Shown here: piece after piece, positions 8,795 through 24,665 of the stretch | Position numbering within the stretch: the stretch's first letter is position 1 | Layout of the letters: every line of letters begins with the position of its first letter | Assembly: GCF_001277175.1 (NCBI RefSeq) | Contig: NZ_CP012257.1 | Span: forward strand, 2,170,001 to 2,234,000 | Length of the DNA stretch: 64,000 bases | Source of the DNA: Cronobacter universalis NCTC 9529 | GTDB taxonomy: Bacteria > Pseudomonadota > Gammaproteobacteria > Enterobacterales > Enterobacteriaceae | Direction: 5' to 3' | Made by a program: the position numbers and the translations under genes | The notes under the pieces: generated by a model | Seen by the model: only the letters and a program-made list of their open reading frames with translations | Told to the model about the DNA's origin: nothing | Databases searched by the model: none

Positions 8795-9226
8795 TTAGGT
8801 GACAACGTCACCTGTAAACCGCTTACGGAGGGTCAGGGAGTTGATCTGGCCCGCCCGGTAATCCACTTCATCGACACAGGCGTAAATCAGCATCAGCCCT
8901 CGCCCGCCTTCGCTCATCAGCGCCGCGTCGTCATCCTGGGCACGGTCGCGAGCGGCGTCGAGCCGGTCATCAGGGATCGCGTTGCCGTCATCGGCAAGTT
9001 TCACCCATGCGCTGGCGTCGTCGCGGTGAAACTCAACGGTAAAATGGCGTGCCGGCGTTTCTTCCAGCGCATGACGGATAACGTTCGCCGCCGCCTCGCA
9101 CACCGCTAAATCAAACGCGAAACGCCAGCCGTCATCCACCGGCAGCGGCGCCATAAACTGCGCCAGCGCGTCGGCGAGCGGGCCGAGCGCATCGAGGCGC
9201 GCGGGAAGCGTCAGGACGGCGCTCAT
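8795..9226 (-). CDS. RsbW-like anti-sigma factor/serine kinase
   Basis: A 143-residue GHKL ATPase. The N box (CEAAANVIRHALEE) and the G2-like box (GGRGLMLIYACVD) are visible. In partner-switching systems such kinases hold a target protein and phosphorylate a STAS antagonist. I start at ATG 9226 (MSAVLTLP) because AAGGATGAG precedes it and it is four bases after the STAS gene. It is the last gene of the leftward operon opgC-like, exported protein, PP2C, STAS, RsbW. No sigma factor is encoded nearby, so the target is unknown; it may not be a sigma factor. Confidence 0.85.
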   Translation of the reverse strand: MSAVLTLPARLDALGPLADALAQFMAPLPVDDGWRFAFDLAVCEAAANVIRHALEETPARHFTVEFHRDDASAWVKLADDGNAIPDDRLDAARDRAQDDDAALMSEGGRGLMLIYACVDEVDYRAGQINSLTLRKRFTGDVVT

Positions 9227-9230
9227 CGGC

Positions 9231-9572
9231 TCATCCTTTTTGCAACCGGGCAAGCGCGGCGGCGCGGTCCGGGCAGAGGATAAACACCCTGTCCATGCGG
9301 GTCAGTTTAAACATATTCATGATGTTGCCGTTCAGCGAACAGAGCGCCATCTCCCCCTTGCCGTTCATCTGCTTAAACAGCGCAATCAGCGTGCCGAGGC
9401 AGCTGCTGTCGATAAAATCCACGCGCGAAAAATCGATTATCAGCCCGCCCGTGGTGCGGGCTATCTCTTCACTTACGCCCTGGCGAAAGGCGGCGGCGAC
9501 CGAGGCGTCCAGCCGTCTTGCCACCGGCGTTATCACGCTCACGCCATTAAGATGTTCAGTTTCAAGATTCAT
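9231..9572 (-). CDS. STAS-domain anti-anti-sigma factor (RsbV/SpoIIAA-like)
   Basis: A 113-residue STAS protein. The core is GGLIIDFSRVDFIDSSCLG, in which the second serine of DSS is the expected phosphorylation site. ATG 9572 (MNLETEHLNG) is preceded by GAGGGAG, so I prefer it to upstream starts. The start overlaps the end of the PP2C gene by 11 bases, indicating translational coupling. It should be phosphorylated by the RsbW-like kinase downstream and dephosphorylated by the PP2C protein upstream. Confidence 0.88.
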   Translation of the reverse strand: MNLETEHLNGVSVITPVARRLDASVAAAFRQGVSEEIARTTGGLIIDFSRVDFIDSSCLGTLIALFKQMNGKGEMALCSLNGNIMNMFKLTRMDRVFILCPDRAAALARLQKG

Positions 9573-10782
9573 CGCGCACTCCCTCGTGGCTTCGTTCAAT
9601 AATTAACAGTGAGACATCATCGGCCATCGTGACCTGATCGCCCTGCTTTCTGGCGCGCCAGTCGACCAGCTTCTCATGCAGCGCCGGGAAAATGGCGTCC
9701 AGCGGGCTGGAAACGTGACGTTGTAACCACTGCTCCAGCCGCTCGTGACCAAACTGCTCCTGCTGCGGATTTTCACACTCCGTAATGCCGTCGCTGTAGA
9801 GGCACAAGCGGTCGCCAGGGCGCAGCGTAAACGCGGCGTCTTCCCAGCTCAGACTTTCCAGTAAACCCACCGGCGCCCCGCCGCTGCCGATACGGGTGAT
9901 GGAGCCGTCCGGGTGCGTGATAAACGGCGTCGGGTGGCCCGCCTGGCACAGCTTGCCCTCGCCGGTTTCGGTGTCGATAACGCCGTAGATCATCGTGAAG
10001 TAGCTGACGATGTCGGTGTCGTCATGGCAGAAACGTTCGTTCAGAATGCGGATAACCTCCTGCGGCGCGGTCACGCCATCACCATCGAACAGAAACCGCT
10101 CCACCGTGCGCCCGTGCAGGAACTGGCGCGCCACGGCGAGCGACATCATCGCCGCGCCCACGCCGTGTCCCGCCACATCCACGCAGTAAAAGCCGAGATG
10201 TCTGTCGAGCGGGAAAAGATTAAAAATATCGCCAGAGACATACGCCGACGGCACAAACAGCCAGTCGGCGAAGAACCTGTCGTACTGCATGCGCCGCGCC
10301 GGCAGCACCGAGCGCTGCAACTGCGCCGCGGCCTGGAGATCGCTTTCGATTTGCGTCAGCGCCTCGCGCAGCCGCGCGTTACGCGCCGCGAGCGTCGCTT
10401 CCAGCTCCAGAATACGCTCGCCCGCGTGCAGCCTGGCGCGCAGCTCGCTCTGGTTGACCGGCTTGCTGAGAAAATCGTCCGCGCCCGCCTGGAAGCCGAG
10501 CGCCAGATCGTCCACGCTCTCGCGCGCCGTGAGCAATATCAGGTAGATATAGTGCTCCTGAAAACGCGCGCGGATCTCCTGGCAGAGCGTCAGGCCGTCC
10601 ATTACCGGCATCTCCCAGTCGCTCAGCACCATGTTCACCCGCTGCGTCGCCAGCACCTCCAGCGCCGCAACGCCGTTAACGGCTTCCAGCACCTCATAGC
10701 CCCATTTTCCCAGCATGCTGCCGAGCAGCCGTCGGTACACGGTGGAGTCATCAACAATCAAAACCCGTTGTCTGTCCGGCAT
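9562..10782 (-). CDS. Response-regulator PP2C phosphatase (REC-SpoIIE, RsbU-like)
   Basis: A 406-residue protein with an N-terminal receiver domain (VLIVDDSTVYRR, phospho-acceptor Asp in VLSDWEMPVMDG, and the KP lysine), a short helical linker, and a C-terminal PP2C/SpoIIE phosphatase. The phosphatase shows YVSGDIFNLF, FYCVDVAGHGVGAAMM and MADDVSLLII, all with the metal-binding aspartates. It should dephosphorylate the STAS protein when its receiver is phosphorylated. ATG 10782 follows AAGGAG. The kinase for the receiver is not in this operon; the HPt domain of the hybrid kinase at 19777 is a good candidate. Confidence 0.92.
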   Translation of the reverse strand: MPDRQRVLIVDDSTVYRRLLGSMLGKWGYEVLEAVNGVAALEVLATQRVNMVLSDWEMPVMDGLTLCQEIRARFQEHYIYLILLTARESVDDLALGFQAGADDFLSKPVNQSELRARLHAGERILELEATLAARNARLREALTQIESDLQAAAQLQRSVLPARRMQYDRFFADWLFVPSAYVSGDIFNLFPLDRHLGFYCVDVAGHGVGAAMMSLAVARQFLHGRTVERFLFDGDGVTAPQEVIRILNERFCHDDTDIVSYFTMIYGVIDTETGEGKLCQAGHPTPFITHPDGSITRIGSGGAPVGLLESLSWEDAAFTLRPGDRLCLYSDGITECENPQQEQFGHERLEQWLQRHVSSPLDAIFPALHEKLVDWRARKQGDQVTMADDVSLLIIERSHEGVRDES

Positions 10783-10791
10783 CAAAGCTCC

Positions 10792-11703
10792 TTAAAGCGG
10801 TAAATACCAGATAAGGCTGACGGTGCCCTCGCGGAACTTGCCGTTGCCGCTTTCATGGCCCGGATAACGCGTGCCGCTGTAGTTGGCGTACTGGAGCGAG
10901 AACGTGCCCGGTTTATAGCCCGCGTAGCCGAAGCTGTAGCTGTAGTCGCCATTCCACGGCTGCTGCTGGCTGCTGTCCGGGTACCAGAACGCGGTGGCGC
11001 GCACGAAGAAATGTTGTTTAAGCGTGTAGCCGCAGCCGCCCAGCACGACATTTTTATTACTGCGGATGTCGTTGCTGTTGAGATCGTAATAACGCGGCAC
11101 CCAGGTGTAGCCCACCTGGCAGATAATCGAATCGCCTTTATTAATCAGCAGATGTTTCTCCAGCGGTTTCGGCAGCGAGAATTTGTAGGCCGCCGTCACG
11201 CCGCCCTGCTCGAAATAGCTGTGACGTTTGTTACCCGACGGCCAGATATGGTTATCGCCATAGTTGCTGTAGACCAGGCTGAAGGTATTGGCGTGCCAGT
11301 CGTCATAGCCGAAGCTGTAACGGAAATCGGTCGTGTAACGGGTTAAGTCGCGCACCGGCGCGCGCAGCGTGACGTTGGCGAAGAGATAACTCCAGGGCGA
11401 ATATTGCAGGCTCAGGTTGAGCGTCTGGTTAATTTTATTGGTCTGCGAGGCCGTATCGCCGCTGTTCGGGATCGTCACGTACTGCTCTTTGAGCCCGCTG
11501 TTAAAGCTCAGCGCGCCGGAAAATTTTTTATCGTTCCCCGAAAACAGCCGTCCCCAGCGGCTCGTAAACACGCCTGCCTGAATGGGCTCGGATTCGTTAT
11601 CGGCGCTTGCCCCGCTCTGCGCGTTTGCAGGCTGGGCGGCGAAAGCCGGCTGGGCCGCCAGCGCGAGCGTCGCCAGCCCGACGCAGTGATATATCCTCGT
11701 CAT
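10792..11703 (-). CDS. Exported beta-rich, probably outer-membrane protein
   Basis: A 303-residue protein with a Sec signal peptide (ending AAQPAFAAQPA). The mature part is rich in aromatic alternating strands (YSFGYDDWHANTFSLVYSNY; YSFGYAGYKPGTFSLQYANY, a visible internal near-repeat) and ends in a hydrophobic strand WYLPL. This pattern fits a small outer-membrane barrel. It lies between the OpgC-like gene and the PP2C gene with short gaps (14 and 9 bases). A role in passing or anchoring the polymer made by the neighbouring synthase is an inference only. Confidence 0.65.
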   Translation of the reverse strand: MTRIYHCVGLATLALAAQPAFAAQPANAQSGASADNESEPIQAGVFTSRWGRLFSGNDKKFSGALSFNSGLKEQYVTIPNSGDTASQTNKINQTLNLSLQYSPWSYLFANVTLRAPVRDLTRYTTDFRYSFGYDDWHANTFSLVYSNYGDNHIWPSGNKRHSYFEQGGVTAAYKFSLPKPLEKHLLINKGDSIICQVGYTWVPRYYDLNSNDIRSNKNVVLGGCGYTLKQHFFVRATAFWYPDSSQQQPWNGDYSYSFGYAGYKPGTFSLQYANYSGTRYPGHESGNGKFREGTVSLIWYLPL

Positions 11704-11717
11704 ACCCTTGTCGTTCC

Positions 11718-12938
11718 TTAATTGGGGATCCAGCGTCCGGCGACGTCATACTTCGCCATCAGCCAGAGAATGCCCAGCGCCACGCCGTGAACCAGCGTGT
11801 TCATAAGCCAGGCCTGATGCCATAAATCGAAATGCACCACCTGACTGACCAGCAGCACCACATAGACATGCAAAATAAAGGTGTAGAGCGAATGCTGGCC
11901 GAGCGGGATCAGAAACCAGCCGGTCAGGCGATAGAGCGGCGTCCAGCACCAGGTCAGCAGCAGATAGACCGTGACCATCAGACAAAAATCGTTCAGCACG
12001 CGCAGTGGCCCGAGTCCGTTTTTGGCCGCCCAGGTGTGGTAAATCATGTTGAAATCCGCAGGCGAAATGACATGCATCAGCAGGCCCGGCGGCATAAAGG
12101 GGTTAGTATGATTCTGGGCGATAAACATCATAATCAGCGCGCAGACCACCATGACCGCGACCGTCACCTTGCCGGGGCCGGTGCGCGCGAGCGAGAGCAG
12201 TTCTTCTTTGTACCAGCCGCAGCACATCCCCAGCACGTAGATGAACTGCCAGGCCATCAGCGGGAACGCAAACTCGAATTCGCTGGCGGTGAGACGAAAC
12301 GGCGTCACCTGATAAAGCCCGTAAACCATCGCCGACCCGGCAATCAGCCACGGGGTTTTACGATAATGCAGCAGCGCCAGAAAGAACGGGCTCATCAGCA
12401 GTAAAAAGACATAGAGCCCCAGGATTTGCGTCTGGTGCGGGCCAATCTGCAAAAACAAAATAATGTTGAACCAGGTTTCTTTAATTTGCGGCGTGGTCGG
12501 GAACAGCGACCAGCTATTTCCAGAGAAACGGTCGACAAAATGGCTTATTTCAAACGTATTGATAAAAGGTATTTTCGACAGCAGCAGTACGCTCAGGATA
12601 ATAACGATATTAACCAGATAGATCTTCCACGCGCGCCGCCACAGCGTCCAGCCCACCGTCAGTAACACGGCCTTTTGCAGACGCTGGCGATTGAGCATGC
12701 CGAGCATAAACCCGGCCAGGATCACGAAGCCTTCGGCACCGGTGGTTAATCCGAAACGCTCCCACGTCAATATATTAAATATCGACATCACCTCCGTGTG
12801 GGCGACCACCATCATGACCAGCGCAATGCCGCGCATCAGGTCGATACGCAGATCGCGCCGGTCGGCCGCCACATAGCGCCAGGAGACGCGCGCGCGCGGC
12901 ATATCGCGAGTTGAAGCTACGCTTGCAGTATCGCTCAT
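11718..12938 (-). CDS. OpgC-like membrane acyltransferase
   Basis: A 406-residue multi-pass protein of the OpgC family. The start of the acyltransferase block is RRDLRIDLMRGIALVMMVVA with the likely catalytic histidine in VVAHTEV, then GAEGFVILAGFMLGM. E. coli OpgC (MdoC) adds succinyl groups to osmoregulated periplasmic glucan. Here it heads a leftward operon divergent from a polysaccharide synthase and is not beside opgGH, so it more probably modifies the product of that synthase. The acyl donor and product are not shown. The 300-base gap to 13266 holds the shared divergent promoter region. Confidence 0.85.
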   Translation of the reverse strand: MSDTASVASTRDMPRARVSWRYVAADRRDLRIDLMRGIALVMMVVAHTEVMSIFNILTWERFGLTTGAEGFVILAGFMLGMLNRQRLQKAVLLTVGWTLWRRAWKIYLVNIVIILSVLLLSKIPFINTFEISHFVDRFSGNSWSLFPTTPQIKETWFNIILFLQIGPHQTQILGLYVFLLLMSPFFLALLHYRKTPWLIAGSAMVYGLYQVTPFRLTASEFEFAFPLMAWQFIYVLGMCCGWYKEELLSLARTGPGKVTVAVMVVCALIMMFIAQNHTNPFMPPGLLMHVISPADFNMIYHTWAAKNGLGPLRVLNDFCLMVTVYLLLTWCWTPLYRLTGWFLIPLGQHSLYTFILHVYVVLLVSQVVHFDLWHQAWLMNTLVHGVALGILWLMAKYDVAGRWIPN

Positions 12939-13265
12939 CGGCTTGGTTTCTTATCGGCTGGGGCCGCCGGTTTCCGGCGGCGCAATATATTCTGAGTATT
13001 ATCAGAAAAGTGTATACGGCAATAAGCGGCTGTCAGCGTTTCGTGGAAAATATATTTTCAGTGACGGGTAAACGAAAAAACGAAGCGCTGCAAATCGTTG
13101 CGTGAATTTATGTCGCTGGAAAGTTTAGCGCGGGCATCTACAATCACTTCATAAACTTAAAACGAATGTTCTGTTGTGCCAGAGATATTTCGCTGACGGT
13201 AAATAGTTGCCTTTGATAATTATTTCCCGCCACTGTCTTTGTTGTGTCTGGATGATGATGCCGCT
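12939..13265. promoter_or_regulatory. Divergent promoter region of the glycan cluster
   Basis: A 327-base AT-richer gap between the OpgC-like gene (leftward) and the synthase gene (rightward). Both operons must start here. I see no clear sigma-54 site or strong palindrome. The long 5' regions leave room for regulator binding. Confidence 0.5.
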
Positions 13266-15080
13266 ATGGGTTTTTATTTCTCCCGTTTTGAAGATCGTAA
13301 ACCGCCGGAGCCGCTAAAAACGCCCCGCGCCGTGAAAATTCTCTGGCAGATAATGTCGGTCGCGGCGTTAGTGCTGGGCGCGAATTATATTCGCTGGCGC
13401 TGGATGGAATCGCTCAACATGGACGCGCTGTGGTACGCCCTGCCGCTGGTCATCGCGGAGACCTGCGCCTGGATTGGCACCGTACTGTTTACCATCAACC
13501 TGTGGCGCGAGGATGACCCGCCTCAGCAGCCCGCCCCGCTGGATATTAACGACTGCCTGAACAGTGAAGATCGGGCCGAGACGCGCCCGGCGCGCGTCGA
13601 TCTCTTTATCGCCACCTATTCCGAAGATGTTGAACTGGTGCGGCTTTCCATTCAGGACGCGCTGAAGATGCGCTATCCCGGCCCGCTCGATTACCGCATT
13701 CATGTGCTGGATGATGGCCGCCGTCCCGCGATGCGCGCGGTCTGCGAAGAAGAAGGCGTTAACTACATTACCCGCGAAACCAATATCGGCTTTAAGGCGG
13801 GCAACCTGCGCAACGGCCTTGAGCAGACCGATGGCGATTTTATCGTGATTTGCGACGCCGATACCCGCGTATTCCCTACGCTGCTTGAGCATACGCTCGG
13901 CTACTTCCGCGACCCGGATGTCGCCTGGGTGCAGACGCCGCAGTGGTTTTTCGATCTCCCTGAAGGCGAACGCCTGCCGCGCTGGCTGTCGCGCAAAGCG
14001 GGTAAACCGGGTTACGCGCTCGGCTGGCTGTCGGAGAAAATCGTCGGGCCGGTGACTATCGGGCGCGACCCGTTCTTTAACGATCCGCGCATGTTTTATG
14101 ATGTGATCCTGCGCCGCCGTAACTGGGCCAACGCGGCCTTCTGCTGCGGCGCGGCGTCGGTGCATCGCCGCGAGGCGATTATGCAGGCGGCGCTGCGCAG
14201 TTATGTCTGGACGGTGGAGGAAGAGATTGACCGCCACACGCGCGATATCCGCGATCCGTCGATGCGAGAAGCGCTTCAGGACGCGATGCGCCCGCATGTG
14301 CTCTATGACACCGAGCTGACGCCCTATAAATTTCACGTCTCGGAAGATATTTACACCTCTATCGTGCTGCATGGCGATAGCGCGCGCCGCTGGCGCTCGG
14401 TGATGCACCCGCGTATCGAATCCAAAATGCTTTCGCCGCAGGATATGCTCACCTGGATTATCCAGCGCTTTAAATATGCCGCGGGCTCGCTGGATATTCT
14501 CTTTCACGACAATATCTTCAGCCGCCGCCGCTTTAAGCTCTCGCTGCCGCAGACGCTGATGTACGCCACGACATTCTGGTCTTATCTCGCCTGCATCTGG
14601 AATACGGTGTTTCTGATCTCGCCGCTGATTTATCTCTTCACCGGCATTCCCCCCGTCTCCGCCTGGTCGACGCCGTTCTATCTGCACTTTTTGCCCTTTT
14701 TCATTGTCTCGGAGCTGGCGTTTATGTTCGGTACCTGGGGGATTTCCGCGTGGGATGGCCGCGCCTCGTATCTGGCGTTTTTCTCGATGAATTTAAAGGC
14801 GCTCGATACGGTGTTACGCGGCGAACAGATTAAGTTTCACGTCACCCCGAAAGAGCGCCAGACCGGGCGGTTTCTCTACCTGGTGAAACCGCAAATCGCC
14901 ATTGTGGCGCTGACGCTTATCGGGCTTATCTGGGGCGGTATCCAGGTAGCGCGCGGCGCGGTGGACGACCCTTCCGGCTATGTGATTAACATCTTCTGGG
15001 GCGCGGTGAATATCGCCGCCATGCTGCCCATGATCATGGCCGCCATGTGGCAACCGGCGGATGAGGAGAGCGGCGCATGA
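13266..15080 (+). CDS. Membrane GT2 processive polysaccharide synthase without PilZ
   Basis: A 604-residue glycosyltransferase of the cellulose synthase type. Two N-terminal membrane helices precede the catalytic domain and about four to five follow it. The processive GT2 motifs are all there: DDG (about residue 150), DAD (about 198), SED in place of TED (about 360), and QRFKYAAG (about 400) in place of QxxRW. The start ATG 13266 follows GGATGATG; an upstream TTG frame has no support. There is no PilZ domain and no bcsB, bcsZ or bcsC beside it, so cellulose is unlikely. It overlaps the next gene by four bases. Product is probably a beta-glucan-like polymer, by inference. Confidence 0.9.
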   Translation: MGFYFSRFEDRKPPEPLKTPRAVKILWQIMSVAALVLGANYIRWRWMESLNMDALWYALPLVIAETCAWIGTVLFTINLWREDDPPQQPAPLDINDCLNSEDRAETRPARVDLFIATYSEDVELVRLSIQDALKMRYPGPLDYRIHVLDDGRRPAMRAVCEEEGVNYITRETNIGFKAGNLRNGLEQTDGDFIVICDADTRVFPTLLEHTLGYFRDPDVAWVQTPQWFFDLPEGERLPRWLSRKAGKPGYALGWLSEKIVGPVTIGRDPFFNDPRMFYDVILRRRNWANAAFCCGAASVHRREAIMQAALRSYVWTVEEEIDRHTRDIRDPSMREALQDAMRPHVLYDTELTPYKFHVSEDIYTSIVLHGDSARRWRSVMHPRIESKMLSPQDMLTWIIQRFKYAAGSLDILFHDNIFSRRRFKLSLPQTLMYATTFWSYLACIWNTVFLISPLIYLFTGIPPVSAWSTPFYLHFLPFFIVSELAFMFGTWGISAWDGRASYLAFFSMNLKALDTVLRGEQIKFHVTPKERQTGRFLYLVKPQIAIVALTLIGLIWGGIQVARGAVDDPSGYVINIFWGAVNIAAMLPMIMAAMWQPADEESGA

Positions 15081-16417
15081 AAGTGACCGACGCCCTGCTG
15101 AGCGCGCGCAGCTATATCACTATTCTGGTGGGCTTTCTGATTGGGTTCGCCGTGGTGGTCTGGGTCGAGCGCCAGATGCCGACGCGCGTGGAGAGCAGCA
15201 GCGGCATTACCTTAAGCGAAGATTTCCCTCCGCTGCCCAATTCCCGCCCGCTCACCTATGATGAGGCCATCTGGGCGCGCGTGGCCTGGCAATATTTCGT
15301 CAATAACACCCGCCCCGACGGGCTGGTGAACGCGCAGGACGGCGCGCCGTGGTTCAGTCTATGGAGCACCGGCAGCTATCTGCTGGCGGCCGTGTCGGCC
15401 TACCGGCTGGACGTTATCACGCGCGATGAATTTGACGAACGTGTGACGCAGGCGCTATTCGCGCTGGGCGAACTGCCGCTCACGCCGAACGGTCTGCCCG
15501 CCGCTTACTACCGCGCGGATAATCAGGACATTTTAGGCAAGCCCGAAAGCAGCGCCGTCGGCGCCGGACGGCTGTTGATGGCGCTCCAGGTGTTGCTGTG
15601 GCACTACCCGCAGCATGCGCCTGCCGTCAACGCGCTGCTGGCGCGCTGGGATCTCGACGCGCTGTTTGTCCAGGCGAAAAATACCAGCGCCGCGCTGGCG
15701 GTACGCCACTGGGTGATCCCGACCGACGAGCCGCGCGACAGCTTTGGCTATCGCACCTATGCCAGCCATACGCTGCGGCTTATCAACACCACCGCCGGGC
15801 TTGCGGTGACGCAGCCGCCGGAGGGCCAGAGTATGATCGATATCGACGGGATCATGGTGCCGGATGAAGGGCTGCGCACGCCGTGGGGCAAACAGCCGTC
15901 GCTGGTGAGCCTCCCCTGGCTGTTGACCGGCCTTGAGCTCGGCTTTGACGCGCAGAGCGGCGAAGTGGCGTGGCGCATCATGCAGATCCAGCAACGTCGC
16001 CACAGCCTGCGGGTGCGCAAGCCGCCGATCAGTACCGATTACGCCGAGCAGGCGCCTGACTACGCCGCCGCCATTCCCGAACGCCAGCCGCAGCGCGAGC
16101 CGGGCGAAACCGCTTATGACAAAACCGCGCCGGAGCGCACGGCCATTACCTCGACCCGCTCCGCCTTCGCCTGGTATGCGCTGTTTCGCAACGGCTGGAG
16201 CGAAGCCCTGCGCCAGCAGGTGCAGCCGTTGCTGGTGCCGGGTAAAGGCTGGCAGCGCGGTCTGAATCTTAATAACAGCGTGAATAATGTGATTGATGCC
16301 GACACCAACGCGGTGGTGCTGGAGAGCCTCGCCTATATCGCGGGCGGGCAACTGCTCTGTCTGGGATGCCAGCATACGCCTTCCACCGCCAATGCTTCTG
16401 CGGGAGTTACGCCATGA
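15077..16417 (+). CDS. DUF3131 protein 1, membrane-anchored
   Basis: A 446-residue protein with one N-terminal membrane anchor (about residues 13-33, TILVGFLIGFAVVVWV) and a periplasmic DUF3131 domain. The family signature is AWQYFVNNTRPDGLVN near residue 75. It is the most divergent of the three tandem copies: a proline- and charge-rich insertion (about residues 310-355) separates the two halves. DUF3131 is an all-helical domain of the kind seen in glycoside hydrolases and lyases, but its reaction is not established to my knowledge. Start and stop overlap both neighbours by four bases, so the operon is tightly coupled. Confidence 0.85.
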   Translation: MKVTDALLSARSYITILVGFLIGFAVVVWVERQMPTRVESSSGITLSEDFPPLPNSRPLTYDEAIWARVAWQYFVNNTRPDGLVNAQDGAPWFSLWSTGSYLLAAVSAYRLDVITRDEFDERVTQALFALGELPLTPNGLPAAYYRADNQDILGKPESSAVGAGRLLMALQVLLWHYPQHAPAVNALLARWDLDALFVQAKNTSAALAVRHWVIPTDEPRDSFGYRTYASHTLRLINTTAGLAVTQPPEGQSMIDIDGIMVPDEGLRTPWGKQPSLVSLPWLLTGLELGFDAQSGEVAWRIMQIQQRRHSLRVRKPPISTDYAEQAPDYAAAIPERQPQREPGETAYDKTAPERTAITSTRSAFAWYALFRNGWSEALRQQVQPLLVPGKGWQRGLNLNNSVNNVIDADTNAVVLESLAYIAGGQLLCLGCQHTPSTANASAGVTP

Positions 16418-17964
16418 CTTTGAAATCTGTATCCCTGTTTATTCGCAGCGTAGCCTGCCTCTTTTTGCTGCTCGGCTGCACGGTGACGGCGCAGGGCCGG
16501 GGCGAACTGCCCGCAAACGACTATCCGGCGCGTCATGGCGAGCTGACCGATCGCGAAATGAAAATGGCGAAAAACGCCTGGCAATATTTCGTGGTCAACT
16601 ACCAGCCGACGACCGGGCTGGTCAACGCCGTCAACCAGTATCCGTCTACCACCATGTGGGATACCGGCTCCTATATCGGCGCAATGGTGGCCGCCCGCGA
16701 GCTGGGGATCATCGACAAAGCGGAATTTGACCGCCGTATGCTGAAGCTGCTCGGCACGCTGAATAAACTCGATCTGTTCCGCAACCAGGTGCCGAACAAA
16801 GCCTATAACACCATTACCGCGCAGAAGGTGAACTACCTGAACAAACCGGGCGAAATCGGCTTCTCGGCGCTGGATATCGGCCGCATGCTGATATGGCTTC
16901 AGAACGTTAAAGAGCGCTACCCGGAATATGGCAACAGCGTCGATAACATTGTGCTCGGCTGGGATTTCACCAACGTGATCGATCCCTGCGGCACCATGTA
17001 TGGCGCTTACCTGGAAAATAACCAGCCGAAATATGTCCAGGAGGGCCGTCTGGGGTATGAGGAGTATGGCGCCGCAGGCTACCAGCTCTGGGGCTTTAAT
17101 ACCTGCCAGGCGAACCGCCCGGAGCCTTACGCGCTGGCCGATATCTACTGCGTGCTGGTGCCTTATGACTCCCGCGATCCGCGCCGTACCAGCCAGCATA
17201 ACTACGTCGTGACCGAATCGTACCTGCTCTATGGCCTGGAGATGGGCTGGGATACCGCCAAAGATCGCGACGACAGCCCCAATAACTACTCACACCCGTG
17301 GATGAAAAACTTCGCCGACCGCGTCTATCAGGCGCAGGAGAACCGCTACACCATCACCGGCGTGCTGACCGCCCGTTCCGAGCATCAGCTCGATAAATCG
17401 CCTTACTTCGTTTACGACACCGTCTTCAGCGATGGGTTTAACTGGAACACCATTACCGACAAAGGCCAGTACGTACCGCAGGCCGCGGCGGTGTCGCTTA
17501 AGGCGGCGCTCGGCATGTGGGTGCTGTGGGATTCGCCCTATACCGATCGTCTCTTCACCACCATTGAAAACGCCAACGATCCGAAACAGGGTTATTACGA
17601 AGGCATCTATGAGAACGGCGACGGGCCGATCAACGCCTTCACCGGCAACAACAACGGCATCATGCTCGAAGCGCTGCTCTATAAGAAACAGGGCAAACTG
17701 CTGCGTTTTAATACCAACGATCCGAAGAATAAAAATTACGCGCCGTCCCTGTGGGAGAAAAAGCTGGTCGACCTGTTTGAAGATAACAACACCCGCCGTA
17801 ACCGTCCGTTCCTCAATATGACGCCGGGCATCCAGAACTGGTGTCAGCAGAGCGGCACCGCGGTACGCAGCAAACCGACCTGTCAGGCCTGCCAGTGCGC
17901 GACCTGTAAAGAGGACGAACCTGTGAAACTGCCACCGGTAACTGCGACATGCTTAAAACAGTAA
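16414..17964 (+). CDS. DUF3131 protein 2, probable lipoprotein
   Basis: A 516-residue protein. The N-terminus MTLKSVSLFIRSVACLFLLLGC looks like a lipoprotein signal with the cysteine at residue 22, a different anchor from copies 1 and 3. The DUF3131 signature is AWQYFVVNYQPTTGLVN, and later WVLWDSPYTD. The C-terminal 40 residues are cysteine-rich (TCQACQCATC), which may form disulfides. ATG 16414 overlaps the previous stop (ATGA). The 3' end overlaps the next gene by 16 bases. Acidic and aromatic residues in the domain could bind glycan, but no catalytic assignment is possible from sequence alone. Confidence 0.85.
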   Translation: MTLKSVSLFIRSVACLFLLLGCTVTAQGRGELPANDYPARHGELTDREMKMAKNAWQYFVVNYQPTTGLVNAVNQYPSTTMWDTGSYIGAMVAARELGIIDKAEFDRRMLKLLGTLNKLDLFRNQVPNKAYNTITAQKVNYLNKPGEIGFSALDIGRMLIWLQNVKERYPEYGNSVDNIVLGWDFTNVIDPCGTMYGAYLENNQPKYVQEGRLGYEEYGAAGYQLWGFNTCQANRPEPYALADIYCVLVPYDSRDPRRTSQHNYVVTESYLLYGLEMGWDTAKDRDDSPNNYSHPWMKNFADRVYQAQENRYTITGVLTARSEHQLDKSPYFVYDTVFSDGFNWNTITDKGQYVPQAAAVSLKAALGMWVLWDSPYTDRLFTTIENANDPKQGYYEGIYENGDGPINAFTGNNNGIMLEALLYKKQGKLLRFNTNDPKNKNYAPSLWEKKLVDLFEDNNTRRNRPFLNMTPGIQNWCQQSGTAVRSKPTCQACQCATCKEDEPVKLPPVTATCLKQ

Positions 17965-19346
17965 GCCGCCTGCTGCTTATCCTCGCCGTGCTGGGCGCGG
18001 TTATCGCCTGGCTGCTGCTGCGCGACGATCGCGCGGGCTGGCGCTGGCTCTCGCACGGGGGCTGGCACACCACCGCGCGCATCAGTAAGCTCACGCCGCA
18101 GGAGCGCGAATGGGCCGCCATCGCCTGGCGCTATTTCGAAAATAACACCCAGGAGGCCACGGGCCTCGTCAACGGCAGCGATAAACGCCCCGTCGCCTCG
18201 CTCTGGCAGATGGGCGATTCGCTTATCGCGTTAACCGCCGCGCGCGAGCTGGGGCTGGTGGATGAGAAAACTTTCGACGAGAGGCTGACCCGCCTGCTCG
18301 GCACGCTGAATCGTCTGCCGCTCACCGCCCGGCAGACCCCGAACCGGCTCTACTCCACCTGGACGCCCGCAATGGTGGATTTCACCGGTAAACCGGGCGT
18401 GATGGGCTGGTCGGCGCGCGACATGGCGCGTCTGATGCTGGCGCTGCGCCTGGTGGCGCAATATCACCCGCAATACAGCGAATATCTGGAGCGCGTGGTG
18501 ATGCGCTGGAATTTCTGCCCGGTCATCGATAAGACCGGCACGCTCTACGCCGCGCAGATGCAGAACGGGCTGCTGGCGCCGCGCGATGAAATTCGCCTTG
18601 GCGAAAGCGAATACGCCGCCGCGGGCTTCAGCCTGTGGGGATTTCAGCCCGCGAAAGCCTGGGGCCCGCCGTCGCAGAACGTCATTTTATACGGTCGCGC
18701 GCTGCCGGTGGACGCCCGCGACCCGCGCACCACCTGGCAGCCGTCGCTTATCACCACGCTGCCCTATACGCTGCCGGGTCTGGAGTTTGGCTGGGAAGTG
18801 CCGGGCGTCGATCGCGAGAAAATCGACAACCTGCGCGAGCGCGCGAAGACGGTCTATCTCACTCAGGAGAGCCGCTGGCAGCAGGAGAAGATCCTTACCG
18901 CCCGCGCCGATTTCACGCTCGCCACCGCGCCGTGGCACGCCGCCGATACCGTCTGGGCCAACGGCTACCCCTGGAACACGCTGGGCGACGACGGCAAAGA
19001 GTACCCGCGTCTCGCGCAGGTCTCCACCAAGGCGGTGTTTTCCCTCTGGGTGCTGTGGGACACCCCTTATACCGACGCGCTGATGCAGGCGACGCACCTG
19101 ATGTATGACGAAAAACGCGGCTGGTATGAAGGCCGCGTCGAGGCGACCGGCGACTATAACCGGGCGCTTACGCTCTCCACCAACGCCACGGTACTGGAAG
19201 CGCTGTTTTATAAAGCTAACGGCGGTCCGCTGCTGGCGAGCGACGCCCCCGCCCCCGGCAGCTACTTTAGCCGCCGCCTGAGCGATGTGTTCAACCCCCT
19301 GCGCCAGTGTCTGCCTGGCGAAAGCCGCCCGGAGGTTCGCCCATGA
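17949..19346 (+). CDS. DUF3131 protein 3, membrane-anchored
   Basis: A 465-residue protein with an N-terminal membrane helix (LLLILAVLGAVIAWLLL) and a periplasmic DUF3131 domain (AWRYFENNTQEATGLVN; WVLWDTPYTD). It is closer to copy 2 than to copy 1 in the second half. It begins within the end of copy 2 and its stop overlaps the globin-like gene by four bases. Three paralogs with three anchors in one operon suggest a multi-subunit periplasmic complex or successive steps on one polymer. Confidence 0.85.
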   Translation: MLKTVSRLLLILAVLGAVIAWLLLRDDRAGWRWLSHGGWHTTARISKLTPQEREWAAIAWRYFENNTQEATGLVNGSDKRPVASLWQMGDSLIALTAARELGLVDEKTFDERLTRLLGTLNRLPLTARQTPNRLYSTWTPAMVDFTGKPGVMGWSARDMARLMLALRLVAQYHPQYSEYLERVVMRWNFCPVIDKTGTLYAAQMQNGLLAPRDEIRLGESEYAAAGFSLWGFQPAKAWGPPSQNVILYGRALPVDARDPRTTWQPSLITTLPYTLPGLEFGWEVPGVDREKIDNLRERAKTVYLTQESRWQQEKILTARADFTLATAPWHAADTVWANGYPWNTLGDDGKEYPRLAQVSTKAVFSLWVLWDTPYTDALMQATHLMYDEKRGWYEGRVEATGDYNRALTLSTNATVLEALFYKANGGPLLASDAPAPGSYFSRRLSDVFNPLRQCLPGESRPEVRP

Positions 19347-19780
19347 TGCTCTATCGGGATCTGTTTGACGAAAGCTACAGCCGCCTGTTTCCCGACGACG
19401 ACAAGCAGCCGTTTTTTGAACGTTTTTTCGCCCGCTTCATCCATATGACGCCGGAAACCGAACACCACTTCGCGGCCGTCGAGCCGCGGCTGCTGCGCAA
19501 TTTCGTCTATAAGAGCTTTTTCGCGATGCTGATGGTGGACGGCGTGCTGATGGTACCCGATTTTCTGGAACGCCTGGCGCGCCAGCAGGAGAGTAACGGC
19601 GTGCGCCTGCCGCCCAACTTTTTCGCCCACTGGCGGCGCGCGATCCTCGACACCGTGGCGGAGCTCGATCCTGACTGCGATGAAGAGGTGCTGACCGCTT
19701 GGGCGATGACGATAGCGCCGGGGCTTGAGTATATGCGCCGCCAGGCCGAGCTGAATTATCAGCCAGGGGCGCAACCATGA
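19343..19780 (+). CDS. Globin-like protein lacking the usual proximal histidine
   Basis: A 145-residue, all-helical protein whose pattern fits a single-domain globin: FFERFFARFIHMTPET early, NFVYKSFFAMLM in the middle, then LARQQESNGVRLPPNFFAHW and an AW near the end. In globins the F8 histidine follows LA-x-x in that segment; here it is glutamine (ARQQ). Either haem is bound differently, or the fold is used as a haem-free sensor module. ATG 19343 overlaps the previous stop. It directly precedes a hybrid kinase, so a sensory input role is a reasonable guess. Fold assignment is by pattern only. Confidence 0.6.
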   Translation: MMLYRDLFDESYSRLFPDDDKQPFFERFFARFIHMTPETEHHFAAVEPRLLRNFVYKSFFAMLMVDGVLMVPDFLERLARQQESNGVRLPPNFFAHWRRAILDTVAELDPDCDEEVLTAWAMTIAPGLEYMRRQAELNYQPGAQP

Positions 19781-22458
19781 ACAGCGCCGCCTTTACGGAC
19801 GCGCTCGACGCGCTGCCCGCCGCCCTGCTGTTTTACGATAAAGATGAGCGGCTGGTCGCCTGGAATGCCCAGGTGAGCCGCTTTTATCCCGGCATCGCGC
19901 CCCATCTGGTGCCGGGCGCCGCCTTAAGCGCGCTGGCGGTGGAGTTTATCAATACAGGTTTTCAGACCGACAGCCGCAGCCGCGACACGCTTATCGCCTC
20001 GCTGCTCGCCAATTGCCGCCACGACGGCCACTGCGAAGTGCGCCAGTTACACGAGCGGCGGCTGTTTATTCAGCATCAGCGAACCGCCGATGGCGGCATC
20101 ATCAGCCTGCATACCGATATCACCGCGCTTGATACTGTACAAAGCACGCGCCAGCTGCTGCATGACGATTTCCTGCTGGCTGCGGAATCGATTCACATCG
20201 GCATCTGGGACTGGCAGGTCACCACCGATATCCTGCACCTCAACGACGCGTTTCTGAATCTGCTGGGCGAGCCGCGCAGCCAGCTACAACATACCAGCCG
20301 CTTTTTATTGTCGCTGATCCACCCGGAAGATCGGGATCTGCTGAAAAACGCCATGCAGCGCGCCAGCAAGCATCAGATGCCGGTTTTTGAGTGCGAAATC
20401 CGCGTTCAGCACCGCAGCGGCAAATGGCTCTGGATGCTGCTCTCCGGGCAGATCATCGCGCTTACCGTCACCGGCGAGATCGAGCGGCTGATAGGCACTC
20501 TCCAGGACATTACCCGCCGTAAAGAGGCCGAGCTGATTTCACGCGACGCGGCCAACGCCGCGCGGGCCGCGAATGAGGCCAAAAGCGCGTTTCTCGCCAA
20601 TATGAGCCATGAGATCCGCACGCCCATGAACGGCATTCTCGGCATGACGCAGCTCTGCCTGGATACCGAACTGAACGGCGAGCAGCGCGAATACCTGACG
20701 CTGGTGATGAGCTCGGCGCAGTCGCTGCTGCATATCATCGACGACATTCTCGATTTCTCGAAAATCGAGGCGGGTAAAATCGTCCTGCATGAGGAGTACG
20801 TGGCGCTGAGGCCCTTTATTCAGTCGCTGGTGCGCCCGCTAATGCCGCTCGCGAGCGAAAAACAGATAGAGCTGCTGGTCGAAGTGGACGAGCGCGTGCC
20901 GGAGATGATGCGCGTCGACGTGGTGCGCCTGCGCCAGGTATTGACCAATCTCCTCAGCAACGCGCTGAAATTTACGCATCAGGGCGAGATTTTGCTGGCG
21001 GTGGCGCCTGGCGCGCAGGACGGCGAATGGCGCTTTCGGGTGCGCGACAGCGGCATAGGCATACCGCCGGAAAAACAGCAGGTGATTTTCGAGGCGTTCA
21101 GTCAGGCGGATACCTCCACCACGCGCCGCTATGGCGGCACCGGGCTGGGGCTGACGATCTCCGCACGTCTGGTCGCGATGATGGGCGGCCAGCTGACGGT
21201 GGCGAGCGAGGCGAATCAGGGCAGCGAATTCAGCTTTACCCTGCCGCTGCAAAGCGCCGCGCAGGCGACGCCGGAAGTCCAGCCGCTGACGCACTTCAAC
21301 GGCGAGCGGGTGCTGGTGGTTGATGATAACGCCACTAACCGCCGTCTGATGCAGGCGATGCTCAACCAGCTTGGCTTAAACCCGGTGTGCGTCTCCGGCG
21401 CCGCCGGGGCGCTGGCGCTGCTGGAGAATGACAGCGATTTTCCGGTGATCGTGCTCGATGCCCAGATGCCGGAAATGGACGGCATTTCGCTGGCGCTGGA
21501 GATATCCGTGCTGCCGCAGGCTTCGCGCAGCAAAATTATCATGCTCAGCTCCATGAGCCGCGATCTCGATCTCTCGACGCTGCGCCGCACCGGGATCGCC
21601 TGGTATCTCAATAAACCGGTCGATCAGCAGGAGCTGGCGCGCGCGCTTGGCGAGGCGCTGCGTCCTGATCCTGCCAGACCCGCGCCGGTGACGACGGTCA
21701 CGGCCGCGGTTCCTGAACTGACGCAAAGCGCGCCGATGCGCATTCTGCTGGCGGAAGATAATCCGGTAAACCAGCTGCTGGCGGTGCGCCTGCTGGAGAA
21801 ACTCGGCCATGAGTGCGTCACGGTGGATAACGGCCTGCTGGCGCTGGAGCAGTGGCGCCGCGGCGGCTGGGATATTCTGCTGATGGATTTGCAGATGCCG
21901 GTCATGGACGGCGAAGCGGCGATCCGCGCGCTGCGCCAGGAAGAAGCGCTGCGCGGCGGACATCAGGCGGCGATTGTGATGACCGCTCACGCGATGCAGG
22001 GCGACAAAGAGCGCTGCCTCGCGATGGGCTTTGACGGCTACCTCTCAAAACCGGTGGCGCTGGTCGCGCTTGCCGACGAGCTGTCGCGCTTCGCCCCGCA
22101 AAGCGCCCCGCCGCCGCTGGACGGCCTGCCGGACAGCGCGCAGCTGCTGGCGGCCTTTGACGGCGACATGGGGCTGTTAAAAGAGCTGCTCGGGCTGTTT
22201 GCGGAAGGCTTTGACGAGCTGGCGGCGCTGCTCGACGCCGCGCTTGCCGCAGGCGACGGCGATCAGGCCCACCGTCTGGCGCATAAGCTGCGCGGCGAAG
22301 CGGCGACGTTCGGCTTCGACGGACTGACCGCGCTGCTGCAGGAGATAGAAAGTCGCGAACCCGGCGCGCCATCGGCGCAGCGCGAGGCGTGGCGTCAGGC
22401 GCTCGGGACGCAGCAGCGTCGCGTGCGTGAATTCCTGATTCAACTGCTGGAGGGATGA
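19777..22458 (+). CDS. Hybrid sensor histidine kinase (PAS-PAS-HisKA-HATPase-REC-REC-HPt)
   Basis: An 893-residue soluble kinase. Domains in order: an N-terminal PAS-like region (1-120), a PAS/PAC (130-250, ending GTLQDITRRKEAE), HisKA with the H box FLANMSHEIRTPMNGILGM (about 275), HATPase (NLLSNALKFT and GTGLGLTIS), a receiver (VLVVDDNATNRR; Asp in VIVLDAQMPEMDG), a second receiver (ILLAEDNPVNQL; Asp in LLMDLQMPVMDG) and a C-terminal HPt with AHRLAHKLRGEAATFG. It has no DNA-binding output, so the HPt must pass phosphate to another receiver; the REC-PP2C protein at 9562 is the only other receiver in the cluster. It overlaps both neighbours. Confidence 0.93.
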   Translation: MNSAAFTDALDALPAALLFYDKDERLVAWNAQVSRFYPGIAPHLVPGAALSALAVEFINTGFQTDSRSRDTLIASLLANCRHDGHCEVRQLHERRLFIQHQRTADGGIISLHTDITALDTVQSTRQLLHDDFLLAAESIHIGIWDWQVTTDILHLNDAFLNLLGEPRSQLQHTSRFLLSLIHPEDRDLLKNAMQRASKHQMPVFECEIRVQHRSGKWLWMLLSGQIIALTVTGEIERLIGTLQDITRRKEAELISRDAANAARAANEAKSAFLANMSHEIRTPMNGILGMTQLCLDTELNGEQREYLTLVMSSAQSLLHIIDDILDFSKIEAGKIVLHEEYVALRPFIQSLVRPLMPLASEKQIELLVEVDERVPEMMRVDVVRLRQVLTNLLSNALKFTHQGEILLAVAPGAQDGEWRFRVRDSGIGIPPEKQQVIFEAFSQADTSTTRRYGGTGLGLTISARLVAMMGGQLTVASEANQGSEFSFTLPLQSAAQATPEVQPLTHFNGERVLVVDDNATNRRLMQAMLNQLGLNPVCVSGAAGALALLENDSDFPVIVLDAQMPEMDGISLALEISVLPQASRSKIIMLSSMSRDLDLSTLRRTGIAWYLNKPVDQQELARALGEALRPDPARPAPVTTVTAAVPELTQSAPMRILLAEDNPVNQLLAVRLLEKLGHECVTVDNGLLALEQWRRGGWDILLMDLQMPVMDGEAAIRALRQEEALRGGHQAAIVMTAHAMQGDKERCLAMGFDGYLSKPVALVALADELSRFAPQSAPPPLDGLPDSAQLLAAFDGDMGLLKELLGLFAEGFDELAALLDAALAAGDGDQAHRLAHKLRGEAATFGFDGLTALLQEIESREPGAPSAQREAWRQALGTQQRRVREFLIQLLEG

Positions 22459-24665
22459 TGAAACGTCTGGCCTGTGCGTTACTGGTACTGACGAGCGGCG
22501 TGGTGGCCGCCAGAACGGCGCCGCCGGTGCCGGTGCCTGCCAACTGGTCGCTGGCGGGCGACTGGCGCGCCCACGACGGCAACGACGCCGCGTTTATGGG
22601 TCAACAAGGGCCGGTGCGCGACTGGCGCACGTTAAAGGTGCCGTCGAACTGGTATACCGCAGGCTGGGATCATCAGGGCGTGCTCTGGTATCGCCATGAA
22701 TTTACCCTGCCGCCGTTGCCGGAAGAGACGATGGCGACGCTGGTCTTTGACGGCGTGGATTATTACGCCGACGCCTGGCTGAACCGTCAGCCGCTTGGCC
22801 GACATGAAGGCTACTTCCAGCGTTTCGCGTATGACATCACCGATAAGTTACAACGTCACAACAAACTGGCGGTGCGCGTCGACAGCCCGTTTGAAGACCC
22901 CAAAACTATCTGGCCACTGCATAAAACGATGGTGAAAGGGGTGCTTAATCAGCACGATACGCGCCCCGGCGGCGCGTGGTCGCCGCGCGGCCAGGACGCC
23001 AACTCCGGCGGGATCTGGGCGCCGGTGCGCCTGCATCTGAGCCGCGGCGTGACGGTCGATAACCTGATCCTGCGGCCCGACTTTCAACACGGGCTTGATA
23101 AGCCGCAGCTTCGCGTCGAACTCGTCTATCGCGCCGCGCAGGCGCGCGAGGTGGAGCTGACCCTGCGCGCCCGCCCGGCGAATTTTACCGGCGAACAGTT
23201 TTCGCAGAAACAGAACGTGCGGCTGGCGGCGACCGGCAGCACGCCGCAGCGCCTCTCATTCACGCTGCCGATGGAAAACGCCCAGCTCTGGTGGCCGAAA
23301 GGCTATGGCTTTCCGCACCTCTACCGCGTCAGCGCCGTCTTCAGCGACGATAAGGGCGAAATGGAGCGCATCGCAAGCCGCACCGGTCTGCGCCAGATTG
23401 TCGAACAGCCGGATAACAAAGGCTGGGTGCTGAACGGTAAGCGAATTTTTATCAAAGGCAGCAACTATATCGGCTCGCCGTGGCTGAGCGAGATGGATGA
23501 AAAAAAATATCGCCGCGATATCGAGCTCGCGCTGAAAATGAACGCCAACGCCATTCGCGTGCATGGCCATGTGGCGGGCCGCCCGCTCTATCGTATGGCC
23601 GACGAAATGGGGCTGATGATCTGGCAGGACGTGCCGCTCCAGTGGGGCTATAACGACAGCCCGGAATTCGCCGATAACGCCGCGCGCCAGAGCCTCGAGA
23701 TGACCGAGCAGATCGGTAACTCGCCGGCGATTATCGTCTGGGGCGGCCACAATGAGCCGCCGTGGAACTCGCCGTGGATGGAGAAACGCTTCCCGGACTG
23801 GCATAAAGATCTCAACCGCGTACTGACGGAACGGGTGGCCGACGCGCTGGCAAAGGATAACAGCCGCATCGTGCATCGTTTCTCGGCGGTGGAGGAGCAC
23901 TACTGGCAGGGGTGGTATTTCGGCGTGATGACGGATGTGCTGCAACCGGCGAAAACCGGCATCATTACCGAATTCGGCGCCCAGGCGCTGCCGAAGCTCT
24001 CGACGCTTAAAACGATTATCCCTGCCGACAAACGCTGGCCCGCCTCGACAAAAGCCGACGATCCTGGCTGGGAAGTCTGGAAATATCATAACTTCCAGCC
24101 GTTCCAGACGTTTGGCTTCGCCAAAATTCCGCGCGGCAAGAATATGGAAGAGTTCATCCATAACACGCAGAAATATCAGGCCGATCTGGTCGGCATGGCG
24201 GCCGAAAGCTATCGTCGCCAGCGCTATCAGCCGGTGACCGCCCTGTTCCACTTTATGTTTGTCGAAACCTGGCCGTCGATTAACTGGGGCGTGGTGGATT
24301 ATCTGCGCCAGCCGAAAGCCGGTTACTATGTGCTCCAGCGCGCGTACCAGCCGCTGTTGCCGTCCATCGAGCCCGTCACCCTTGACTGGCGCGCCGGCAC
24401 GCCCGGGGCGGTTAAATTATGGGCGATAAACGATAGTTTTTCGGCCTGCGACGGGTGTAAACTGCGCTGGCGCGTGAAAACGCCCGGCATTACCGGGCAG
24501 CAAGAGAGCAAACCGATGACCCTCCCGCCTGACAGTAGCCGCCAGGTTGCCCGGCTGACGTTCACTCCCGCCGCCCCTGGCGCGCTGCGTATCGAGTATG
24601 AAATTCTTGATTCGCAAGGCAAAACGGTTGGCAGTAACTTTTACGAGACCACCGTCGCGCCCTGA
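22458..24665 (+). CDS. Exported GH2-family glycosidase
   Basis: A 735-residue protein with a Sec signal peptide (KRLACALLVLTSGVVAA) and the GH2 layout: sugar-binding domain, immunoglobulin-like domain, TIM barrel. The acid/base glutamate is in WGGHNEPPW (about residue 433) and the nucleophile in IITEFGAQ (about 505), so it should be active. Family members include beta-mannosidases, beta-galactosidases and related exo-enzymes; specificity cannot be read here. ATG 22458 follows GGAGGG and abuts the kinase stop. As the last gene of a synthase operon it may trim or release the polymer, as BcsZ does for cellulose, though it is unrelated to BcsZ. Confidence 0.88.
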   Translation: MKRLACALLVLTSGVVAARTAPPVPVPANWSLAGDWRAHDGNDAAFMGQQGPVRDWRTLKVPSNWYTAGWDHQGVLWYRHEFTLPPLPEETMATLVFDGVDYYADAWLNRQPLGRHEGYFQRFAYDITDKLQRHNKLAVRVDSPFEDPKTIWPLHKTMVKGVLNQHDTRPGGAWSPRGQDANSGGIWAPVRLHLSRGVTVDNLILRPDFQHGLDKPQLRVELVYRAAQAREVELTLRARPANFTGEQFSQKQNVRLAATGSTPQRLSFTLPMENAQLWWPKGYGFPHLYRVSAVFSDDKGEMERIASRTGLRQIVEQPDNKGWVLNGKRIFIKGSNYIGSPWLSEMDEKKYRRDIELALKMNANAIRVHGHVAGRPLYRMADEMGLMIWQDVPLQWGYNDSPEFADNAARQSLEMTEQIGNSPAIIVWGGHNEPPWNSPWMEKRFPDWHKDLNRVLTERVADALAKDNSRIVHRFSAVEEHYWQGWYFGVMTDVLQPAKTGIITEFGAQALPKLSTLKTIIPADKRWPASTKADDPGWEVWKYHNFQPFQTFGFAKIPRGKNMEEFIHNTQKYQADLVGMAAESYRRQRYQPVTALFHFMFVETWPSINWGVVDYLRQPKAGYYVLQRAYQPLLPSIEPVTLDWRAGTPGAVKLWAINDSFSACDGCKLRWRVKTPGITGQQESKPMTLPPDSSRQVARLTFTPAAPGALRIEYEILDSQGKTVGSNFYETTVAP

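Follow-up and report, generated by a model that had tools for sequence, protein, structure and literature searches.

We analysed a window of 64,000 nucleotides from Cronobacter universalis NCTC 9529 (contig NZ_CP012257.1, here C1; C1:2170001-2234000). At positions 8795 to 24665 of this window lies a locus in which a family 2 glycosyltransferase (GT2) is encoded with three DUF3131 proteins, an OpgC-like acyltransferase, a GH2 glycosidase and the phosphatase, STAS protein and kinase of a partner switch. An earlier note on this DNA had described two divergent operons with these genes, and family matches located all of them where they had been placed. The features, in window coordinates, are the following.

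8795..9253, minus strand: RsbW-type anti-sigma-like serine kinase (HATPase_c_2; PF13581, E 1.3e-19; 168 residues)
9231..9599, minus strand: STAS protein with the phosphorylatable-serine motif IDSSCLG (PF01740, E 1.1e-14)
9562..10785, minus strand: response regulator with a PP2C (SpoIIE) phosphatase domain (PF00072 and PF07228)
10792..11703, minus strand: outer-membrane beta barrel P0004 by predicted fold, probable glucan exporter or porin
11718..12938, minus strand: OpgC-like membrane acyltransferase (PF10129, OpgC_C, E 2.9e-51)
12939..13238: divergent intergenic region of 300 bases between the two operons
13239..15080, plus strand: PilZ-less processive GT2 synthase (PF00535), a separate clade by sequence comparison
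15077..16417, plus strand: DUF3131 protein 1 (PF11329, E 1e-64), hydrophobic N-terminus, by eye a probable membrane anchor
16366..17964, plus strand: DUF3131 protein 2, probably an exported (alpha/alpha) barrel (DUF3131 match, E 3e-129)
17949..19346, plus strand: DUF3131 protein 3 (PF11329, E 1.6e-99), hydrophobic N-terminus, by eye a probable membrane anchor
19307..19780, plus strand: globin-like protein (profile match to PA3967, 1tu9, E 5.8e-16; annotated as globin in relatives)
19777..22458, plus strand: hybrid histidine kinase, PAS-PAS-HisKA-HATPase-REC-REC-Hpt by domain matches
22455..24665, plus strand: GH2 glycosidase with a signal-like N-terminus (nearest solved matches beta-mannosidases; 5n6u, E 2.9e-40)

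Neighbouring genes overlap by 4-52 bases or are spaced by 6-14 bases, which agrees with the earlier description of genes that overlap or nearly touch, and the divergent region is the sole larger gap. Two operon members, the globin-like protein and the hybrid kinase, come in addition to those described before, as does the receiver domain on the PP2C protein. Alignment with 14 relatives places the start of the GT2 probably at ~13266, shorter than the longest frame, and the length of a relative's counterpart places that of DUF3131 protein 2 probably at ~16414.

Linkage of the set was assessed in two samples. For the first, 398 genomes were sampled evenly across the phylum, including that of the window; this is the fairer test, since the second was picked by likeness to the GT2. 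A GT2 match above 500 bits occurred in 15 of the 398, with a clean split to the next match at 140 bits; the second GT2 match of the window's own genome, at 120 bits, adjoins bcsB and is for that reason assigned to bcsA. A DUF3131 match lay on the contig of the GT2, with match edges less than 300 bases apart, in 14 of the 15 (the exception being G095; a partial DUF3131, 2-84, in G254 is counted), and STAS was present in all 15, on the same contig and within 6 kb in 12. Thus, in the co-occurrence check that the earlier note had set in advance, the GT2, DUF3131 and the switch were found to stay together across distant bacteria.

The second sample comprised 87 loci, examined by iterated profiles: relatives from a GTDB pattern scan (the best 80 of 366), six plasmid loci and a slice of the window, this last added to a set of 89 from which three pieces of the window's own genome had been removed. 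Chosen by their GT2, these loci are its nearest kin; some are cut by contig ends, and matches at locus edges were counted. DUF3131 was found in 85 loci (224 copies), RsbW in 78, STAS in 77, the PP2C motif in 74 (by a GHG-type pattern; an SGD pattern found 40 loci only), the barrel in 67, GH2 in 56, an acyltransferase in 49 (OpgC in 41, another acyltransferase in 8) and the globin in 17. For RsbW and the barrel the true values are probably higher by two, because in two Serratia loci both genes probably lie 3-6 kb beyond the fetched end, as contig numbers and coordinates indicate. Bacteria far removed from Cronobacter, with labels from several phyla, also carry the core of the set. Closer to the window, the GT2 was found in all seven Cronobacter genomes searched, the window's own included, and the window's copy shares 98% identity with C. 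malonaticus and C. sakazakii proteins in the database; complete genomes of E. coli gave no megablast match to 13239-19346.

The GT2 has in common with bacterial cellulose synthases the motifs DD, DxD, ED, KAG, QTPQ and FxVTPK, and its closest PDB entries are cellulose synthases. DxD was present in 87/87 loci, SED in 86 (DED in the remaining one; the pattern used was loose) and an FxVTPK-type gating loop in 84, the other three having FPVPQK once and FPSTPK twice; in those 84 the tail after the loop measures 70-109 residues. The synthase departs from BcsA, however, in being ~25% identical to it, in having no PilZ match in a Pfam scan of the window's GT2 (it had already been called PilZ-less) and in a longer stretch before the catalytic ED, where the window's GT2 has 42 residues more than the BcsA chain 7lby, which we take to be that of E. 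coli. The spacing from HRREA to SED is 25-59 residues, with a median of 54, in the 81 loci in which it was readable. A further difference lies at the QxxRW site, the register of which was read from an alignment with solved BcsA. The window's GT2 has QRFKY there, and QR[FY]KY occupies the site in all 87 loci and in 120 of the 120 database matches listed (the best 120 of 4583); a context-bound pattern left 6 of the 87 and 17 of the 120 unread, and freer patterns read all. In the set of BcsA, CrdS and BgsA, QxxRW is fully conserved according to the relevant section of the source, which also names a refined subset of 242 sequences, and the tryptophan of the motif is described there as stacking on the acceptor glucose (PMC6821405). 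As QR[FY]KY replaces this conserved motif, the acceptor site, judged by its residues, differs from that of known beta-glucan synthases. In sequence comparisons the GT2 also forms a separate clade. Within its tree the 29 enteric rows make up a single clade (Shimodaira-Hasegawa-like approximate likelihood ratio test, SH-aLRT, 100), and OpgC is present in all 29; the tree took 85 of the 87 loci, the GT2 being split in two frames in loci L027 (Enterobacter cloacae) and L034 (Pantoea wallisii).

The earlier claim that the set matches neither the cellulose (bcs) nor the opgGH locus holds. The only bcsB match of the genome is at C1:4070176 and its two mdoG matches are at C1:1649097 and C1:2278882, all outside the locus, so the set is neither of bcs nor of opgG type. 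The GT2 fell below membership of the BcsA equivalog TIGR03030 (205.9 bits against a cut-off of 699.1) and of the MdoH (OpgH) profile (16.1 bits against 884). Features of both systems are nevertheless shared, namely an outer-membrane barrel and, in the loci of relatives, a glucanase with the bcs operon, and the OpgC acyltransferase domain with the opg systems. We know of no partner switch or DUF3131 protein for BgsA or CrdS. These two resemble the synthase as beta-glucan-synthase-type GT2s with no recognisable PilZ domain and, unlike it, belong to the set reported to keep QxxRW (PMC6821405); BgsA is described as activated by cyclic dimeric GMP (c-di-GMP) (PMC5567048). Sinorhizobium plasmid glycosyltransferases, among which BgsA was not singled out, are ~26% identical to the GT2.

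The DUF3131 domains of the locus are stand-alone proteins, usually in several copies beside a GT2. Their predicted (alpha/alpha)6 fold is closest to the beta-1,2-glucanase/GH189 clan by VIA-align structure comparison. E292 is invariant in a 77-row alignment and conserved in 97% of 221 copies, and D268 in 95%, both being positions in a sequence alignment. The catalytic acids of GH189 are given as E1356 and E1442 of the T. italicus enzyme in PMC10834661, and most substrate-recognition residues of the clan are said to differ between families, one group having no known substrate, in PMC12102758. DUF3131 domains occur also in frames of 826-1028 residues in genomes that lack this GT2 (G055, G083, G115, G331), and two such long-frame pieces (L091, L092) align over almost the entire domain.

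Several genes that accompany the set in relatives bear on its product. A cluster of UDP-glucose (uridine diphosphate glucose) pyrophosphorylases was found in 23 of the 87 loci (tested member matching UTP-glucose-1-phosphate uridylyltransferase 8x7s, E 9.8e-123), a GH9 cluster in 16 (tested member nearest endoglucanases; 3x17, E 1.6e-93) and a GH16 cluster in 14 (tested member nearest a 1,3-1,4-beta-glucanase; 1byh, E 5.4e-44); these counts, and that of H-NOX below, are of clusters with one or two members identified. Because relatives add the pyrophosphorylase, GH9, lichenase-like GH16 and H-NOX genes, the product is probably a beta-glucan made from UDP-glucose. A phmmer search with the OpgC-like acyltransferase, taken to E 1, found no relative of solved structure. 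The exported beta-rich protein P0004 had no Pfam or NCBIfam match, and its barrel fold was predicted by VIA-align structure comparison. BcsS occurs in two Sphingobium loci (annotated as such in L006), and a single-sequence comparison gave no relation of P0004 to it. Fusion of the barrel to a BcsC-like scaffold is not supported, a Pfam scan having found no tetratricopeptide repeat (TPR) in 8 of 11 long barrel proteins; one of the 8 scanned has a peptidoglycan-binding domain, and the Paracoccus locus encodes a separate TPR-PgaA-barrel protein.

By its motifs the PP2C-STAS-RsbW module is intact: the serine motif DS[ST] is present in 77/77 of the locus STAS proteins and ExxxNxxxH in 77/78 of the RsbW proteins. 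The genome has nine HATPase_c_2 matches, among which only the RsbW of the locus (70.8 bits) is in a short frame, the other eight scoring at most 37.8 bits in frames of 378-607 residues. The sensors that accompany the module vary by lineage. A globin-like protein is found in many enterics and one Burkholderia, and H-NOX (12/87 loci) in Thiothrix, other Thiotrichaceae, one Leucothrix and Roseobacteraceae; a simple YxSxR pattern occurs in 6 of the 12 H-NOX proteins and does not settle haem binding of the other six. FIST-domain proteins, a class that can sense nitric oxide, occur in at least two loci of the H-NOX-type lineages. At the site aligned to the PA3967 histidine, presumably the proximal one, the window's globin and most enteric ones have glutamine, the Serratia ones glycine, and that of Burkholderia (L044) histidine. 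Considering that glutamine replaces this presumed proximal histidine, the enteric globin-like protein, a sensor globin, may have lost haem binding.

We consider it fairly likely that the locus is self-contained for the synthesis, processing, acylation and export of a beta-glucan under control of the partner switch. The GT2 would polymerise UDP-glucose through the inner membrane. As the chain grows, it would be cleaved or transglycosylated by the DUF3131 proteins, of which two are probably anchored in the membrane. Material that is released or ends up in the wrong place would be cleared by GH2, or by GH9 or GH16 in relatives; the OpgC-like protein would acylate the polymer, and the outer-membrane barrel would be its exit route. 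Sensing would fall to a globin-like protein here and to H-NOX elsewhere; together with the hybrid kinase, this partner would send phosphate via Hpt to the receiver domain on the PP2C phosphatase. The phosphatase would dephosphorylate the STAS protein, and RsbW would re-phosphorylate it. The state of STAS and RsbW would then set the output, a task that falls to c-di-GMP and PilZ in cellulose synthases. What the sequences show is which genes are present, that these stay linked from genome to genome, that the catalytic motifs are intact and which folds are predicted; from this we infer the polymer and its linkage, what each protein does, which way the signal runs and that the switch acts on synthesis. 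The earlier note, too, had proposed a polymer-making locus under a partner switch. For the glycan part of that idea, the DUF3131 fold and the glucanase (GH9, GH16) and pyrophosphorylase genes linked to the set in relatives give support; the polymer itself, its linkage and control by the switch are proposed on top of it.

A number of observations weigh against the proposal. The STAS match is on another contig in three of the drawn genomes (G205, G104, G080), and in five (G067, G135, G168, G164, G254) the match close to the GT2 reaches only 30-39 bits. Two Edwardsiella loci have no switch beside the GT2, with weak RsbW-like matches elsewhere, and two Sphingobium loci have no DUF3131, so neither the switch nor DUF3131 is strictly required. 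Among enteric loci the pyrophosphorylase is present in three only (L028, L029, L031), 17 of the 87 loci have no GH2, GH9 or GH16 within their flanks, and the resemblance of the window's GH2 to beta-mannosidases does not favour a product made of glucose. The hints at linkage also conflict, GH9 and the lichenase-type GH16 pointing to beta-1,4 or mixed linkage, and DUF3131 and OpgC to beta-1,2.

Two more specific products have been weighed on these grounds. A beta-1,4- or mixed 1,3;1,4-beta-glucan exopolysaccharide, functionally analogous to cellulose or to the S. meliloti BgsA product, would fit the nearest solved structures of the GT2, the GH9 and GH16 genes of relatives and the BcsS of the two Sphingobium loci; given the uniform replacement of QxxRW, a DUF3131 fold closest to beta-1,2-glucan enzymes and the low identity to the Sinorhizobium glycosyltransferases, we hold it to be a sizeable possibility of somewhat less than even probability. 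A beta-1,2-glucan like the osmoregulated periplasmic or cyclic glucans, with DUF3131 as beta-1,2-glucanase or cyclase and succinylation by OpgC, appears rather unlikely, as mdoG is missing from the locus, the GT2 scores far below the MdoH cut-off, relatives carry beta-1,4 and mixed-linkage glucanases, and the substrate-recognition residues of the clan mostly vary between families. It is similarly doubtful that RsbW and STAS, which match anti-sigma and antagonist families, form an ordinary sigma-factor switch acting on transcription of the locus or of a distant regulon, with a tie to the synthase that is regulatory only: the switch accompanies the synthase even in distantly related bacteria, RsbW directly precedes the synthase gene in many loci, and in scans of 86 and a further 90 neighbour proteins no sigma-factor family with at least two members stood among the 25 most frequent families (of 82 and 48, respectively), the rest of the genome lying outside this search. 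That scan took 176 of 229 selected neighbours, the 53 omitted being mostly near-copies or proteins already identified.

Within the proposed beta-glucan locus, a bolder and improbable version would make the switch a direct, protein-based stand-in for the c-di-GMP/PilZ gate. Unphosphorylated STAS or RsbW would dock on the synthase, perhaps at the stretch before SED, and open it in answer to a gas-sensing phosphorelay (H-NOX, FIST-domain, globin), and linkage would be fixed by the KY motif together with DUF3131 transglycosylases. The nearest precedent for the switch is SypE/SypA of Vibrio fischeri, where the STAS switch for a polysaccharide locus is fed by a phosphorelay; in that system, how the STAS protein SypA acts was unknown as of 2015 (PMC4517449). 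The two differ in that SypE joins kinase and phosphatase in one protein, separate here, and in that the syp locus has 18 genes compared with the one processive GT2 here. The locus would offer a system for finding the targets of SypA and similar STAS proteins in polysaccharide regulation. For the DUF3131 family it would supply a function, and among GT2s a clade with an acceptor motif unlike that of known beta-glucan synthases, all within a glycan pathway widespread among Cronobacter and bacteria labelled as several phyla.

The earlier note had called this a candidate new glycan system. This stands in so far as a literature search, with most subscription journals outside it, found no functional study of the gene set and no product; DUF3131 itself is named in three of the papers covered. 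The set itself is not new to print, since it is listed as block 3b of Klebsiella pneumoniae, among accessory genes tied to a population gradient; the passage on that block gives no function and does not mention the barrel, globin or GH2 (PMC12974863).

Some individual carriers are of note. The whole locus is present on a conjugative-typed IncF plasmid of Salmonella Rubislaw (L004), near filamentous haemagglutinin genes, and the GT2 of this plasmid is closest in the tree to that of Entomohabitans. On the Pantoea stewartii plasmid pDSJ10 (L005, 6477-9041) an IS66 element occupies the expected STAS site and OpgC is in two frames, so this locus looks decayed; OpgC is also in two frames in L030. 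The carriers include Sphaerotilus, Thiothrix and Leucothrix (L038, L039, L065, L068, L069, L071, L076), which are filament- or sheath-forming genera, and it is only a thought that the locus may relate to sheath polymers there. A contig labelled Mycobacterium sp. KBS0706 (L084) carries the locus with a GT2 that groups among Alphaproteobacteria, and is perhaps mislabelled or contaminated. In the window itself, a trehalase gene lies 145 bases 3' of the GH2 gene; a trehalase follows the set in none of the annotated relatives compared, and it was not counted as a member. Downstream of it, at 26516-28495, is an autotransporter with a GDSL lipase domain.
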